DNA of 21,090 nt from a virus. Of the stretch, positions 16,080 to 20,507 are shown in pieces. The stretch covers positions 1 to 21,090 of the IMG/VR virus record IMGVR_UViG_3300031758_000688, one strand, 5' to 3'. The position numbers and the translations under genes were made by a program. The notes under the pieces were generated by a model. It had not been told where the DNA came from and did no database searches. It saw only the letters and a list, made by a program, of their open reading frames with translations. The stretch's first letter is position 1. Every line of letters begins with the position of its first letter.

Positions 16080-16331
16080 ATGCGCTTCCTCACCGTCGAA
16101 AACTGGAAGCGCGGCATCGCGCTGACCATCCTCGCTGCCTATAGCTATCAGCTTGTGGCGTGGCCCATCGTGTATTGGTTGACGACGTTGCTCACGCTCG
16201 CCACCGGGGTCCAGTGGCCCGCGCCGCCCATCGTGCCCTGGGAGCAACTCACGGCAGGGACTGCCACGCTCGCGGCGGTGGGCGGGATCGAGACCTGGCG
16301 CAAGCAGCGCGGCACCGAGAGCACGCAATGA
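16080..16331 (+). CDS. Probable holin (GTA 3TM-holin-like)
   Basis: This 83-residue protein has a long hydrophobic region at 11-43 (IALTILAAYSYQLVAWPIVY and following), which may be one or two membrane passes, and a second at about 53-69 (LTAGTATLAAVGGIET). A short charged tail ends WRKQRGTESTQ. The pattern of an internal Trp-Pro followed by a Gly-rich last helix and a basic end resembles the GTA_holin_3TM family, although I cannot confirm it without a search. It would form the membrane lesion that releases the endolysin encoded immediately downstream. The ATG at 16080 is 2 bases after the preceding stop; the frame is open upstream but overlaps the previous gene. Its TGA overlaps the endolysin ATG (ATGA at 16328-16331). 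Confidence 0.72.
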   Translation: MRFLTVENWKRGIALTILAAYSYQLVAWPIVYWLTTLLTLATGVQWPAPPIVPWEQLTAGTATLAAVGGIETWRKQRGTESTQ

Positions 16332-16786
16332 GCGACATGATCGACCCGCTCAGTGAGCACTTCACCTGGTCGGAAGCAACGCACAGCGAAACCGCCATCC
16401 GCCTCGGCATCGACAACACCCCGCCGCTTTCGGTGCGCGTGAACATCCGAACGACGGCCGCGAAAATGGACAGGCTGCGCAAGTTTGTCGGCCGGCCGGT
16501 ACATGTCACAAGCTGGTATCGCTGCTTAGACCTCAACCGCGCTTTGCGCAGCCGAGACAACAGCGCCCACGTGCAGGGGTTTGCCGTGGACTTCGTGGCC
16601 CCGAGTTATGGATCGACCGAGCAGCTTTTCGACTTGCTCGCGCCGCTGGCCCTAGACATGGGGGCAGACCAGATCATCCGCGAGTTTGCGGGCAGCGCCC
16701 GAGGCGGGTGGGTACACGTTAGCTTTGACCCGCGCGGGCGGGGGCAAAAACTGGTGATTGACGGCAGCGGGACGCGCGTTGCGTGA
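16328..16786 (+). CDS. Endolysin, M15-family peptidase
   Basis: A 152-residue zinc peptidase of the M15 (D-Ala-D-Ala carboxypeptidase or L-Ala-D-Glu endopeptidase) type, which cuts peptidoglycan stem peptides at lysis. Zinc ligands are predicted as His81 and Asp88 in SAHVQGFAVDF and His130 in GWVHVSF, the S-x-H-x-x-G-x-x-x-D and W-x-H motifs of the family. A nearby acid such as Glu119 may be catalytic. The N-terminus (LSEHFTWSEATHSETAIRLG) is typical for phage M15_3 proteins. There is no signal peptide, so release should need the holin encoded just upstream. ATG at 16328 overlaps the holin stop. The last 135 bases overlap a leftward HTH gene on the other strand. Confidence 0.9.
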   Translation: MSDMIDPLSEHFTWSEATHSETAIRLGIDNTPPLSVRVNIRTTAAKMDRLRKFVGRPVHVTSWYRCLDLNRALRSRDNSAHVQGFAVDFVAPSYGSTEQLFDLLAPLALDMGADQIIREFAGSARGGWVHVSFDPRGRGQKLVIDGSGTRVA

Positions 16787-17017
16787 CGCGCTGGATGCCC
16801 CAGGACGCGCGCACAGCTTGTGGCTAGGGTGTTGCCCCGTCCGGAGCAAAAAAAGCTCCCACGCGGCCAGGTCGAGCGTCCTATCCCCTGCCTCGACGGC
16901 TTGCCATGCTCGCAGGGAGCGGTGGCAGAGAGCGCCCGCGGCGGTTTGCGACAGTCCGGCCGCTTTGCGGGCGGCGCGGATGTCGGTCGGGCCAGCTACG
17001 ACTTTGTCACTAACCAT
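16652..17017 (-). CDS. Small HTH DNA-binding protein, 3' end antisense to endolysin
   Basis: A 121-residue reading frame. Residues 11-60 form a helix-turn-helix of the phage XRE-like type (DIRAARKAAGLSQTAAGALC, then SLRAWQAVEAGDR and AAWELFLLRTGQHP), and the typical protein of this sort ends near residue 65-70. Here no stop occurs before the frame enters the endolysin gene, so the last 45 or so codons are antisense to it. These residues (Pro- and Ala-rich, no pattern) look like run-on translation. It starts 8 bases inside the end of the ParB-like gene. It is the last gene of the leftward cassette and could be its regulator. The HTH part is convincing; the C-terminal part is doubtful. Confidence 0.7.
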   Translation of the reverse strand: MVSDKVVAGPTDIRAARKAAGLSQTAAGALCHRSLRAWQAVEAGDRTLDLAAWELFLLRTGQHPSHKLCARPGASSASRNARPAAVNHQFLPPPARVKANVYPPASGAARKLADDLVCPHV

Positions 17018-17666
17018 GGCTTGCCCCCCATGCCTGCGAAAACTCGCGCTCGGAGAAAAGCTCGGCCAGCCCTGTGATCTGTTTTAGTCGGAGTACTTCG
17101 TCTGGCTCCATGCCGAGTTCGGTGGCAATCTTTTCGTCGCTCCAGTTGCGCCGCGCCAGATCAATGACGATATCGGCCATAGCGTCAACCTGATGTTTGC
17201 CCCGCGCCCGGTTGTGCCGAATAGTCGCCGCGACTCGATCTTCTTTGCCGGTGCGCTCTGTGTTGATTACCGCAATCGGCAGGCGGCCGTGTACCCGTTT
17301 GCGAACGGCGCCGACTTCGCGGCCAACTCGGTTGCGGTGAAAGCCGTCAACGACTTCGTAACTGCCTTCCGCATCCGGCCACGCCACAATCGGCTGTGTG
17401 TATCCGTCCGCCATAATGGACAGTTGCAGCAGCCGCATTTCGGGTGGCGCCACGCTGTTCGGGTTGTAGTCATTGGCATGCAATTGTTCCGCGCGAACCC
17501 AAAGCACGCAGTCCACCGGCTCGCGTTTCATCGGCGAGTGCTCGCGCAGGGCAAGCCTGATGGCGTTGATCGCGTCAATGCGGTTGTCATTGTCTAAATC
17601 GGCGAAGCGCGCAAACAACGCGCGCGCCTCTTCAACTAAGCCGGCAGCAGTTAGATCAAGTTCCAT
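17010..17666 (-). CDS. ibrB: IbrB/YbdM-like ParB-fold protein
   Basis: A 218-residue protein of the ParB/Srx fold, starting at the ATG at 17666 with GGAG just before it; the frame is open further upstream into the previous gene. After a helical N-terminus, the ParB-like domain runs about 50-155 with NDYNPNSVAPPEM, SIMADGYTQPIVAW, the nucleotide-binding type motif VVDGFHRNRV (106-115) and the hallmark IRHNRARGKH (149-158). A helical DNA-binding-like region follows (about 160-205, WSDEKIATELGMEPDEVLRL). This order and the adjacent PP-loop gene match E. coli IbrB/YbdM. Members of this fold can be NTP-dependent; the activity here is unknown. It is not a plasmid-partition ParB, since no parA lies nearby. 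Its end overlaps the HTH gene by 8 bases. Confidence 0.85.
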   Translation of the reverse strand: MELDLTAAGLVEEARALFARFADLDNDNRIDAINAIRLALREHSPMKREPVDCVLWVRAEQLHANDYNPNSVAPPEMRLLQLSIMADGYTQPIVAWPDAEGSYEVVDGFHRNRVGREVGAVRKRVHGRLPIAVINTERTGKEDRVAATIRHNRARGKHQVDAMADIVIDLARRNWSDEKIATELGMEPDEVLRLKQITGLAELFSEREFSQAWGASHG

Positions 17667-18847
17667 TGGCTTCTCCGTCGCTTCATGAGTTGCTGATACT
17701 TTGAAAACGCTTCCGTTTTGTGCTGACTGAACGACAGCCCCTTGCACCAATAGTCATTTCTAAGCAGCGCCTTGCATATGCGAGTCCACGATGGCTGCCC
17801 CTTGTCGGCGACGGGGCCGGCATCGGGAATTCCATGCGGGTAGCCGCGTTTTTGATACCACATCAAAAACACGGCGATCTTGTCTTTGTAGTGTTCGGCT
17901 GTTGATGGCGGCATGCTGGCGAGAATTGACTCGGCAAACTGCCGCCAGCTCAAATGGCCGGGCTTGCTGATGTTGCGATAGCCGAGCACACTGCCCGACT
18001 CCTGCACGTAGAGGGCGCCTTGATTGGCGCCATTGACTCGCGCAACAACCCGGCCCCATGTCTCAGGTTCTATTACGTGATAGAGCCAAAGCCCTTTCCG
18101 TTGATCGTCGCCATAAGGTTGGCAGATGCGCGCTTGGTGAATCGTTAGACCGGCTTGGTGCATGCGGTCGTACAGTTTGTTGTAAGGGGCGCCAAAGCGG
18201 CCGTTGTAAGTCCAGATGTCTTCCGTGCGCCAGTCGTAGATCGGGTAGGCGTTGTATAGGTGGTCGCCACACCAAGTCATCCATTGCCGGCCATCAAACG
18301 TGCTTTTGCGGCCGGCGATCGTGCGGTAGCGGTTCAGCGACTCGTCACTGCGAATGCCGACGAAGCACGCGCACAGCTTGCCCTGTGCGTACCATTGCCC
18401 AAACGCAGGCACAAATTCCTCGAACTCCATCGCCCGCCGGAAAAAAGGAAAGTAACCCTCGTGGGTGATTGATCTAGCGTGGGGTTGCCGCACCCAATCA
18501 GCCTCGCGTCCTGGCTGCCAACAAACCCACTGCGGCTCGAACTGGCTGACTGCGTTACGCAGGTGAATTGGCAGCGCAACCCAATACGGCTCGATGTGCT
18601 CGGCGTAGCGCTCAAAGGTCTGCGTGACGTAGTCGATGGTGAGACGGTACTGCGCTTCCAGATCGACAAATAGCAAGCCGATCCGGCGGTTGCGCTTCAC
18701 TGCCTCTTGCATCACAAGCTCAAGCATCACGCCGCTATCTTTGCCGCCGCTGAAAGAAACGTAAATGCGCGGGAAGTCGTCAAACACGGCTGCGATTCGC
18801 TGCCGGGCCGCCGTCAAAACGTCAATGCCTAGTGGTTTTTTAGCCAT
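17651..18847 (-). CDS. ibrA: IbrA/YbdN-like PP-loop protein (PAPS reductase fold, DUF3440)
   Basis: A 398-residue protein with the PP-loop SGGKDS at residues 33-38, which binds ATP or adenylylated substrates in PAPS reductases, DndC and related enzymes. Further family motifs are VGIRSDES (163-170) and YPIYDWRTEDIW (201-212), followed by the DUF3440 part (MHQAGLTIHQARICQPYGDD and later AVFLMWYQKRGYPHGIP). Length is close to E. coli YbdN (about 406). Cysteines at 109, 159, 161, 193, 242, 358 and 368 could be redox or metal ligands. Substrate and reaction are not known. It is the fourth from last in a chain of overlapping genes: the preceding gene ends 19 bases inside it, and it overlaps the ParB-fold gene by 16. 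Start ATG lacks a strong ribosome site, fitting translational coupling. Confidence 0.88.
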   Translation of the reverse strand: MAKKPLGIDVLTAARQRIAAVFDDFPRIYVSFSGGKDSGVMLELVMQEAVKRNRRIGLLFVDLEAQYRLTIDYVTQTFERYAEHIEPYWVALPIHLRNAVSQFEPQWVCWQPGREADWVRQPHARSITHEGYFPFFRRAMEFEEFVPAFGQWYAQGKLCACFVGIRSDESLNRYRTIAGRKSTFDGRQWMTWCGDHLYNAYPIYDWRTEDIWTYNGRFGAPYNKLYDRMHQAGLTIHQARICQPYGDDQRKGLWLYHVIEPETWGRVVARVNGANQGALYVQESGSVLGYRNISKPGHLSWRQFAESILASMPPSTAEHYKDKIAVFLMWYQKRGYPHGIPDAGPVADKGQPSWTRICKALLRNDYWCKGLSFSQHKTEAFSKYQQLMKRRRSQWNLI

Positions 18848-19227
18848 TGTTCGATCACCGACTCTGCGATGCGCTGAATCTCACCTTCACCGTTGACGAT
18901 GCAGAAATAGCGGTCGGACGATCGCCAGCTCGTCGGCGACTTGACTTCGTAGACATTGCCCGAATCCAAAACAAACCAAAGCTCGACTCCTCGTGAGTGA
19001 GTTGAATTGGCGCGCTTGCGCTGCCAGTTGGCTTGCAGAAACTCGCGAGTCCAGCCGTATTTTCGGTCGCGCCCGACAATGCGCGCGACCCACGGTTTGC
19101 GCGGACGAGCGTTCCCGACTACGCGCCGGCCAAGCCCAGGCTTGACCTGATCGATAATCATGGAATACATTTTTAAGAGCGCGTCTTGTGATTCCCCGAT
19201 GTACTCCAGCGCTAACGTAGCCTTCAT
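18829..19227 (-). CDS. Uncharacterised protein encoded upstream of IbrA
   Basis: A 132-residue basic protein that I do not recognise. It begins at ATG 19227, which forms an ATGA overlap with the preceding stop; a GTG at 19236 in frame would add three residues. The sequence has an N-terminal helix (QDALLKMYSMIIDQVKPGLG), a highly basic middle (RKPWVARIVGRDRKYGWTRE, NWQRKRANSTHSRG), then a beta hairpin (VELWFVLDSGNVYEVKSPTS) and an end with RYFCIVNGEGEIQRIAE. The basic middle and hairpin could bind nucleic acid. Its stop lies inside the IbrA-like gene, so the two are almost certainly translated together. A role with IbrA/IbrB is an inference from that linkage. Confidence 0.75.
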   Translation of the reverse strand: MKATLALEYIGESQDALLKMYSMIIDQVKPGLGRRVVGNARPRKPWVARIVGRDRKYGWTREFLQANWQRKRANSTHSRGVELWFVLDSGNVYEVKSPTSWRSSDRYFCIVNGEGEIQRIAESVIEQWLKNH

Positions 19228-19580
19228 GCGGGCCACTCGACCTGATGAGATGCCGGCCGATACAACCCGACTAGGTGCGCCACTTCTTTGATGGCCTCAC
19301 GCGCCGCAAGAAACTGATTCTGACGATCGTGGAAGTCCTGCAACGTAAAAACGCCCCCGTGCCATTGAACTGTGCCAATCTGCCTCGGGTCTTCTTCGTT
19401 CATCTCGCGCCACGCAACGTCGAGGGTCGCGCCAATTGCATCAATATCCGCCTGCGTCGGAGAATAGGCCGGGTCACGCATCCGCTCGGACCCGATGGCA
19501 CTTTTCATGGCCTCGGTAAGAGGATCGCACCGCTGGCCATTAAGAGCTAAATGTGCTGCCGTGCCAATAGAGATTTGCAT
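19224..19580 (-). CDS. Uncharacterised first gene of the IbrA/IbrB cassette
   Basis: A 118-residue acidic protein, first of the leftward operon. It has a strong Shine-Dalgarno GGAG (complement of 19587-19590) six bases before its ATG. The protein is mainly helical: an N-terminal segment with a possible short hairpin, YSPTQADIDAIGATLDVAWR, a short strand pair (IGTVQWHGGVFT) and a final helix (NQFLAAREAIKEVAHLVGLY). No family recognised. It overlaps the next gene as ATGA, and the operon is preceded by the near-consensus promoter at 19638-19665. Function unknown; a partner or regulator of the PP-loop and ParB-fold proteins is a reasonable guess. Confidence 0.75.
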   Translation of the reverse strand: MQISIGTAAHLALNGQRCDPLTEAMKSAIGSERMRDPAYSPTQADIDAIGATLDVAWREMNEEDPRQIGTVQWHGGVFTLQDFHDRQNQFLAAREAIKEVAHLVGLYRPASHQVEWPA

Positions 19581-19607: not shown

Positions 19608-19613
19608 AGCGGC

Positions 19614-19628
19614 GGATGCGTTGCATCC
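19614..19628. promoter_or_regulatory. Inverted repeat at the transcription start of the cassette
   Basis: GGATGC (19614-19619) and GCATCC (19623-19628) form a perfect 6-bp inverted repeat around a 3-base centre. It lies just downstream of the predicted start of the leftward transcript and may be a second operator or a hairpin in the 5' leader. Confidence 0.45.
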
Positions 19629-19637
19629 ATGACCAGC

Positions 19638-19665
19638 ATCATACGCACCGGGTGCGCATTGTCAA
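19638..19665 (-). promoter_or_regulatory. Near-consensus sigma70 promoter for the leftward cassette
   Basis: Read on the minus strand: TTGACA (19665-19660), a 16-base spacer, then TATGAT (19643-19638). The -35 is perfect and the -10 has one change from TATAAT. Transcription would start near 19631, about 50 bases before the first ATG of the operon. The strength and separate orientation suggest expression independent of the late rightward transcript. Confidence 0.78.
19641..19659. promoter_or_regulatory. Palindromic operator candidate inside the promoter spacer
   Basis: The 19 bases ATACGCACCGGGTGCGCAT form an inverted repeat centred on 19650. The CGCACC and GGTGCG arms are perfect, with two more matching pairs outside one mismatch. 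It fills the space between the -35 and -10 elements, where a bound repressor would block RNA polymerase. The binding protein is unknown; the HTH protein of the cassette or a host or phage repressor are candidates. Confidence 0.6.
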
Positions 19666-19733
19666 GGGGTATCGACAACAAAATGCCGGAGTGTCAAAAA
19701 CGCAACAACCGGCGCCCATAAAGGAGTCCGTCA

Positions 19734-20273
19734 ATGATCCCCGGCCTACCCGTACCGCTCGCAAGCCTCCGAACCGCCCTCGCGGTAGCCGGTGCCGTCG
19801 CCGTCGTCGCGTTGCTCGCTGGCACGTACTGGCTCGGTCGCAGCCACGAAGCCGACGGGTGGCGCCTCAAAGCCGCCCAGGCGGCCGCTGCAACTGAGCG
19901 GGCAATCGCCCTTGAGCAAACCCGCCAGCGCGAGATTGAGGCGCGCTGGCAATCAACCGTCGATCAACAGGCCTCGGAGTTATCTAATGCACGCACAACG
20001 ATCACCCAGCAGGCTTCCCGCCTGCGCGCTCTTAGTCTCGACTCTAGTCGGCTGCGCGACCAGCTCACCGCCTACGCCGCCGGTAGCCCCGGCGAGGATT
20101 CCGTCGCCGCCTGTCACGCTCGGGCCGCAGCACTCTCAGCCTATGCTGCCGATCTTGGAGCCGTTGCTGGTGAGATTGCAATCGCTGCTCGACAATCCGC
20201 CGTCGAGCGAGACGAGTTTGCCGCAGAAGTGAACGCGCTGATTAAAGCGTGGCCGCGTGCGGGAGAACGCTAG
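19734..20273 (+). CDS. Rz: Inner-membrane spanin Rz (i-spanin)
   Basis: A 179-residue protein with a single N-terminal membrane segment at about 12-33 (VAGAVAVVALLAGTYWLG) followed by a long Ala- and Gln-rich periplasmic coiled coil (RAIALEQTRQREIEARWQST onward). This is the layout of Rz-type inner-membrane spanins, which with an outer-membrane partner fuse the two membranes in the last step of lysis of Gram-negative hosts. AAGGAG at 19721-19726 precedes the ATG. The Rz1 partner is nested in another frame. The endolysin and holin lie 2.9 kb upstream, separated by the leftward IbrA/IbrB cassette. Its stop TAG abuts the stop of a leftward gene. Confidence 0.9.
   Translation: MIPGLPVPLASLRTALAVAGAVAVVALLAGTYWLGRSHEADGWRLKAAQAAAATERAIALEQTRQREIEARWQSTVDQQASELSNARTTITQQASRLRALSLDSSRLRDQLTAYAAGSPGEDSVAACHARAAALSAYAADLGAVAGEIAIAARQSAVERDEFAAEVNALIKAWPRAGER
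19987..20232 (+). CDS. Rz1: Outer-membrane lipoprotein spanin Rz1 (o-spanin), nested in Rz
   Basis: An 81-residue lipoprotein read in the +1 frame relative to Rz and lying wholly within it. ATG 19987 is preceded by GGAG (19976-19979) seven bases away. Residues 1-22 are a lipoprotein signal (MHAQRSPSRLPACALLVSTL) with the lipobox LVGC and lipidated Cys23. The mature part is Pro-rich (SSPPTPPVAPARIPSPPV), as in Rz1 proteins, and about 59 residues long. It would sit in the outer membrane and contact the Rz periplasmic domain. The frame is open upstream to 19792, but only the later ATG yields a signal peptide. Confidence 0.9.
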   Translation: MHAQRSPSRLPACALLVSTLVGCATSSPPTPPVAPARIPSPPVTLGPQHSQPMLPILEPLLVRLQSLLDNPPSSETSLPQK

Positions 20274-20507
20274 TTAGGCGTCTTCGCACTTTGCCAGCAG
20301 CGAATCTATCGCCTTGTCTACTGCGGCGCCAGCTTTGCCCTTGTTGTCCTTCAACATCGAAGCAAAGAAAGCGCGGTAAATCTGGTCCGTCAGGATGTTG
20401 GCTTTGTCGCAGTGCGGGTAGCCGTAGGCGTGCAGGTTCTTCACGCCGGCTGCAATCAATTTGTCTTCCATCGTCGTTCCTCTCTTTTCTCAACCAAGAC
20501 GCCTAAC
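20273..20507. repeat. 12-base inverted repeats flanking the 65-residue gene
   Basis: GTTAGGCGTCTT at 20273-20284 and its exact reverse complement AAGACGCCTAAC at 20496-20507 enclose the small leftward gene at 20274-20471. A further 10-base copy, GTTAGGCGTC, occurs at 20951-20960, just upstream of another small gene. The first copy covers the meeting stop codons of Rz and the 65-residue gene. Confidence 0.65.
20274..20471 (-). CDS. Small phage protein, function unknown (65 residues)
   Basis: A 65-residue protein (MEDKLIAAGVKNLHAYGYPH, later FFASMLKDNKGKAGAAVDKA) with two Cys (21 and 62) and a largely helical C-terminal half. An AGAGG stands about seven bases before the ATG. Its stop is immediately next to the Rz stop, so the two genes converge with no spacer. 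No family recognised. It is flanked by 12-base inverted repeats. Confidence 0.72.
   Translation of the reverse strand: MEDKLIAAGVKNLHAYGYPHCDKANILTDQIYRAFFASMLKDNKGKAGAAVDKAIDSLLAKCEDA

Follow-up and report, generated by a model that had tools for sequence, protein, structure and literature searches.

The IbrA/IbrB-type genes of this phage are, on sequence comparison, members of a recurrent unit of three co-inherited genes, B-ibrA-ibrB, and the site that holds them between the endolysin and the spanin genes is a slot of the moron type whose cargo can be exchanged. Insertion, a promoter-like site of its own, and cargo exchange are demonstrated by sequence analysis. The IbrA/IbrB pair was already known; what is new is that a third component recurs with it, that accessory proteins are swapped and fused, and that the site occurs in three states. 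Our preferred reading is tentative and falls somewhat short of an even chance of being right: the slot would be repressed by an HTH protein, and its cargo, which includes IbrAB and B, would carry out an ATP-dependent adenylylation directed most likely to nucleic acid.

Organisation of the cassette

The window is the entire virus record of 21,090 bases, and coordinates count from its first letter. Five overlapping minus-strand open reading frames (ORFs), in the order A, B, ibrA, ibrB, and HTH, lie between the endolysin gene and Rz/Rz1. The overlaps are 4 bases for A/B (ATGA), 19 for B/ibrA, 16 for ibrA/ibrB, and 8 for ibrB/HTH, with starts fitted to relatives. For gene B this start is the ATG that aligns with its relatives, and a GTG at 19236 gives a longer ORF. 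These ORF calls agree with an earlier note, which had described five leftward genes with overlaps of 4 to 19 bases between a rightward endolysin and a rightward Rz/Rz1. The same cassette is found in two near-identical contigs. Its features and those of its flanks are as follows.

16328..16786, plus strand: endolysin (Peptidase_M15_3), left flank; Pfam 5.5e-11, PHROG endolysin 1.8e-30
16652..17017, minus strand: XRE-type HTH ORF; HTH_31 6.1e-6, just under the Pfam cut-off
16993..19577, minus strand: exchangeable cargo block; similarity to the sister contig L217 stops at 16992 and restarts at 19578
17010..17666, minus strand: ibrB, 218 aa, ParB/Srx N-terminal domain and helical C-terminal part; phrog_2159, ParB/Noc profile
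17651..18847, minus strand: ibrA, 398 aa, PP-loop ATP-pyrophosphatase with DUF3440; Pfam, fold match
18829..19227, minus strand: gene B, 132 aa, small mainly-beta IbrA partner; phrog_26647 family
19224..19580, minus strand: gene A, 118 aa, orphan and first cargo gene; no weighty Pfam, PHROG, or NCBIfam match
19638..19665, minus strand: sigma70-type promoter TTGACA-N16-TATGAT, 11/12 match, reading into gene A
19644..19656, no strand: perfect palindrome CGCACC-C-GGTGCG, placed between the -35 and -10 hexamers; candidate HTH-protein operator
19734..20273, plus strand: Rz-like i-spanin, right flank; PHROG 6.8e-8
about 19987-20232, plus strand: Rz1 o-spanin, lipoprotein, an ORF embedded in Rz

An HMM search of the five proteins gave matches for IbrA, IbrB, HTH, and B, and left only A without a weighty one. 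Among 50,697 phage records none matches gene A, and its only relatives are in the near-identical contigs. The other side of Rz is also variable. It has a 65-aa ORF here (20274-20471), and in the relative L216 a protein of 200 aa, with the ligase-like motif EKIDGT, lies beyond Rz (L216:6016-6618).

The insertion site

Three site states were read from the endolysin relatives L216, L217, and L218. In L216 (endolysin 91% and Rz 94% identical) the site is empty and Rz begins 17 bases past the endolysin stop, which bears out the earlier claim that the cassette is inserted. L218 (76% identical) is also without the cassette. L217 (endolysin 91% and Rz 93% identical) retains the HTH gene, with 95% identity in its core, and carries a single ORF of about 72 codons in place of A-B-ibrA-ibrB, with the same ATG and the same leader. 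This alternative cargo (L217:2840-3077, MANHPNRCQSRDELLARAYV...) encodes a protein of about 72 aa with no relatives found in the phage collection.

The promoter precedes gene A on the strand of that gene. No other sigma70-type site in the 21-kb window reaches 11/12 matches, and the chance expectation for such a site is 0.0125 per 4.6 kb. A 62-base stretch with promoter and palindrome (19609-19670) is identical between the window and L217. The palindrome is a single copy in the window, is present in L217, and was not found in the empty-site relatives L216 and L218. Since the same three elements (promoter, palindrome, and HTH) enclose a different gene in L217, they are assigned to the insertion site as its frame, and the genes between them are assigned as cargo. 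The cassette has its own promoter-like site, lies on the opposite strand, and is absent from the close relatives L216 and L218, as in a moron. The P2-like Pseudomonas phage Sirocco has a comparable moron, in which a small gene and a related HTH gene lie leftward among rightward late genes, but it is without the palindrome and has no IbrAB at that spot.

The HTH ORF overlaps the endolysin 3' end in antisense by 135 bases (16652-16786). HTH sequence takes up roughly 72 codons at its start, and the remainder is antisense to the endolysin gene. The tail of about 45 residues is probably a junction by-product on which there is no selection, because in L217 the frame is interrupted close to residue 75. 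The HTH protein probably binds the palindrome between -35 and -10 and so represses the promoter.

The recurrent unit and its accessory partners

A total of 174 IbrA loci were surveyed with iterated profiles: 80 viral, 80 from one-per-species genomes, and 14 others including the window. They were picked by similarity to the window IbrA, so the counts are not population frequencies. IbrB adjoins IbrA in 170 of the loci. Directly upstream of ibrA stands B in 69, c3 (a second small family, unrelated to B) in 26, an SNF2-type helicase in 15, and none of these in 64. After collapse at 85% IbrA identity (130 rows), B still precedes ibrA in 57. A and HTH were seen in this survey only in near-identical contigs. 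The earlier note had proposed that the two small proteins and the HTH protein form a complete unit with the pair; this stands for B as a recurrent partner, and does not stand for A, an orphan, or for HTH, which belongs to the site. Likewise, the neighbourhood survey that it had called for recovers B-ibrA-ibrB repeatedly and never all five genes together beyond the near-identical contigs.

The partners follow the IbrA tree, a FastTree tree in which many forks are weakly supported. In one clade 58 of 66 rows have B, and in another all 24 of 24 have c3; the upstream-partner labels need 16 changes vs 62.9 in shuffles. Distances of B and IbrA correlate (r 0.41), as do those of IbrA and IbrB (r 0.70), and in both cases none of 2000 permutations was as high.

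The association of B was also examined in reverse, independently of IbrA. Scans with single B proteins return close kin only, and the B motif DYSxANSxGSRG[VI], written as a DNA pattern, was used instead. It found 26 viral stretches, all of which encode B. The ibrA gene lies directly downstream in 24 of the 26, or in 25 counting L205, a cut contig end whose other part (L057) carries ibrA. One intact B gene, L202:2344-2661, is without ibrA; its neighbours are a DNA methyltransferase-like ORF and a small RHH-like ORF.

A GNAT-like protein is adjacent or fused to the pair in 48 of the 174 loci, often between ibrA and ibrB, and part of these neighbours score as GNAT in Pfam while others do not. IbrB-c3 fusions occur in uncultured bacterial contigs (L118:329-1471 and L119:4813-5961), and an IbrA-GNAT fusion occurs in Aneurinibacillus (L142:5977-7695) with an SNF2-type helicase immediately upstream. 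These fusions tie the accessory proteins to the IbrA/IbrB pair. In Streptomyces loci the B domain forms the end of a longer protein rich in cysteine, and an annotated protein of this kind (484 aa) occupies the B position before ibrA-ibrB on a Streptomyces plasmid (L181:4580-6034), where its gene stands beside type I-E cas genes. The helicase of PY1 is split into two ORFs and was left out of the evidence. B is best explained, from these arrangements, as one of several interchangeable accessory subunits, with c3 or an SNF2-type helicase in its position elsewhere and GNAT as a possible addition.

IbrA-type genes are widespread: the phage records with a match number 216, and the plasmid records 676. 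Around B-type loci stand terminase, portal, integrase, and recombination genes, and a scan of 90 neighbour proteins there gave no further recurrent partner. In the Streptococcus thermophilus phage D4276 (L093:1478-3508) the order is AcrIIA5, a small protein, an SNF2-type helicase, and ibrA-ibrB.

Such surroundings bear on the proposal that the trio serves counter-defence or superinfection exclusion. The moron position with its own promoter, the AcrIIA5 gene two genes before helicase-ibrA-ibrB in D4276, and the presence of IbrA pairs on plasmids agree with it. The anti-CRISPR association is one locus, however, no defence partner recurs at B-type loci, and PADLOC gave no weighty defence match, and we regard this proposal as unlikely.

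IbrA

The earlier description of a PP-loop protein with DUF3440 and SGGKDS at residues 33-38 is confirmed by Pfam, which places DUF3440 (8.9e-31) and PAPS_reduct (4e-18) in one protein. In the predicted model (pLDDT 87.9), residues 5-260 match FAD synthase (Z 15.6, rmsd 2.5, 171 aligned), CysD (Z 14.9, rmsd 3.2, 169 aligned), and APS reductases (Z about 15), which are tied. TilS, NcsA, TtuA, and LarE come next at Z 10-12. The family profile finds CysD as its best solved sequence (1.1e-7), followed by FAD synthase. By model and profile, IbrA thus has the fold of the adenylyl-transferring ATP-pyrophosphatases, shared with FAD synthase, CysD, and APS/PAPS reductase at Z of about 14-15.6, but it is unlike them in its extra DUF3440 region and its near-constant ParB-like partner.

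Residues invariant over 70 diverse rows include S33, G35, K36, D37, S38, D62, E64, R120, R166, E169, S170, R173, P202, Y204, D205, W206, D210, W212, R240, and R270, a selection rather than an exhaustive list. They comprise the motifs RxxESxxR and PxYDW, and G34 of SGGKDS is nearly invariant. None of the cysteines is universal among 130 rows; C242 is kept in 120 and C368 in 110. The window protein has all five common cysteines, and no more than one of them survives in intact relatives such as phiAQ113 and FCL-2. Because its cysteines are not universal, a sulfur-transfer role is not preferred for IbrA. Adenylyl transfer as the end reaction is what we infer, in a fold group that includes reductases and sulfur-transferring enzymes.

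Many annotations state that such a protein is an auxiliary PAPS reductase, which would aid host sulfur metabolism. The PAPS_reduct domain, the PHROG name (phosphoadenosine phosphosulfate reductase), and the published treatment of a phage protein with a PAPS_reduct domain speak for this role. Against it, the catalytic CysH motif ECGxH is found in 0 of 70 IbrA while GKDS is found in all 70, and the role leaves the ParB-like pairing in 170 of 174 loci unexplained. It is highly implausible.

A sulfur-based DNA modification like phosphorothioation is a further candidate function of the cassette. Dnd, Ssp, and BREX type 4 have a PAPS-reductase-like PP-loop enzyme like IbrA, and Dnd also has a ParB-superfamily protein. 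IbrA would then resemble DndC or SspD and work with a host cysteine desulfurase, IbrB would be a regulator like the ParB-like DndB of Dnd systems, and B would be nickase-like. IbrA has weak PADLOC matches to DndC, BrxP, and SspD, and the best solved match of B is a nuclease (Z 4.8). In contrast, DndC requires a cysteine-held [4Fe-4S] cluster, and each of the five common IbrA cysteines is missing from some family members, a test that applies to the family, as the window protein has all five. The cassette has no desulfurase, and the PADLOC scan of its five proteins found no DndD, DndE, or SspB/C partner. This modification is quite improbable here, the more so as the nuclease match of B is weak and a candidate catalytic residue is not kept (see Gene B). 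The preferred reading takes IbrA as an adenylylating enzyme, with IbrB and B as its partners.

IbrB

IbrB has the DGFHR and IRHNRARG motifs that the earlier note had given for a ParB-fold protein. This classification holds through phrog_2159 (3.3e-70), with ParB_N (2.4e-4) below the Pfam cut-off, and the family profile matches ParB and Noc structures (best 3.7e-7). DG[FY]HR is found in 26 of 26 IbrB rows where ParB has the GERR CTP-binding motif, and GERR is found in none. IbrB is, as judged from these profiles and motifs, a ParB/sulfiredoxin-like protein without the CTPase motif. PDB profile matches of its C-terminal part are helical designs only.

Gene B

Gene B had no Pfam match in the search of the cassette proteins, and matches phrog_26647, a phrog annotated as function unknown. 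Its AlphaFold2 model (pLDDT 92.8) has seven strands and flanking helices. The best match among solved structures is weak, namely AFV1 ORF157 (Z 4.8 over 83 residues), which is a nuclease (PMC4187194). Foldseek gave no confident solved fold for B, which does not make the fold new, and three viral predicted structures match it at E < 0.001, all without an assigned function. A catalytic nuclease was not taken up as the reading of B, as Z is only 4.8 and D69, the obvious acidic residue, is replaced by Q in the window and by N in L013.

The window protein deviates from the near-invariant KDYS motif of the B family and may for this reason be a relaxed member. The Pfam family Phage_Gp111 matched 8 of 48 B members (best 2.3e-4), and this identity is left unclaimed, as none of the ibrA-neighbouring Streptococcus phage genes that were examined matched the B profile. 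In profile comparison, B, c3, and the small Firmicutes phage proteins have no similarity to each other.

Relation to known pairs

The E. coli pairs IbrA/IbrB and YbdN/YbdM have the same genes in the same order as the window; domains and adjacency agree with the earlier assignment to this type. The enterobacterial pairs differ in the lack of the B gene, and the E. coli and Klebsiella pairs persist in that form. The IbrA and IbrB of phage phiR5_2 are 48% and 56% identical to the window proteins. The pair-only form may be derived, because the phiR5_2 IbrA sequence is nested inside the B-type clade, with modest support. A Klebsiella copy lies near dsbG and ahpCF, and ybdNM is repressed by CitR (PMC9068703). 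The literature searched seldom names DUF3440 and gave no chemistry for it.

The Chlorobiaceae phage CV-1-33 has B-ibrA-ibrB in the same order and with overlapping ends within its genes 5-9, and the identities to the window are 35% for B, 67% for IbrA, and 65% for IbrB. The genes at the two ends of this run have no relation to A and HTH, and its gene products have domain labels only, or none.

In E. coli an ibrAB island raises the expression of prophage eib genes (Sandt 2002, as cited in PMC7649339). This agrees with a transcription co-activator pair in which the enzyme folds would be only nucleotide sensors and B a modulator, as do the Cro and antirepressor genes near ibrA in Streptococcus and Lactobacillus phages. 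A mere sensor, however, need not keep the PP-loop and the acidic and arginine set that are invariant over 70 IbrA, and the link with GNAT and helicase genes hints at an enzymatic role. A purely regulatory pair is rather unlikely, and an adenylylating system is preferred.

Proposed function and significance

In the preferred mechanism, the dedicated promoter would read against the lysis genes, and the HTH protein would repress it through the palindrome. The slot holds exchangeable cargo, which in this phage is gene A and the three-component IbrAB system. IbrA would most likely adenylylate an acceptor with ATP, like its fold relatives FAD synthase and CysD. IbrB, with its ParB/Srx nucleotide-binding domain and helical part, and B would guide IbrA to a target that is most likely nucleic acid. 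At other loci B gives way to c3 or an SNF2-type helicase, and GNAT may be added. The benefit would probably go to the resident or replicating phage, by altered host gene expression or an effect on competing phages, which is the least certain step.

A broader and doubtful proposal is that IbrA/IbrB forms the core of an undescribed phage family of nucleic-acid-directed adenylylating enzymes with interchangeable subunits, of which the E. coli pair would be a reduced form that has lost the third subunit. If this is true, the accessory subunits (B, c3, SNF2-type helicase, and GNAT) would set the target or the product. The third co-inherited subunit in one large phage branch, together with the recurrent GNAT and helicase partners and the fusions, gives biochemists parts to test. 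The three-state site (empty, small gene, or IbrAB) is a natural experiment in which promoter and regulator are constant.
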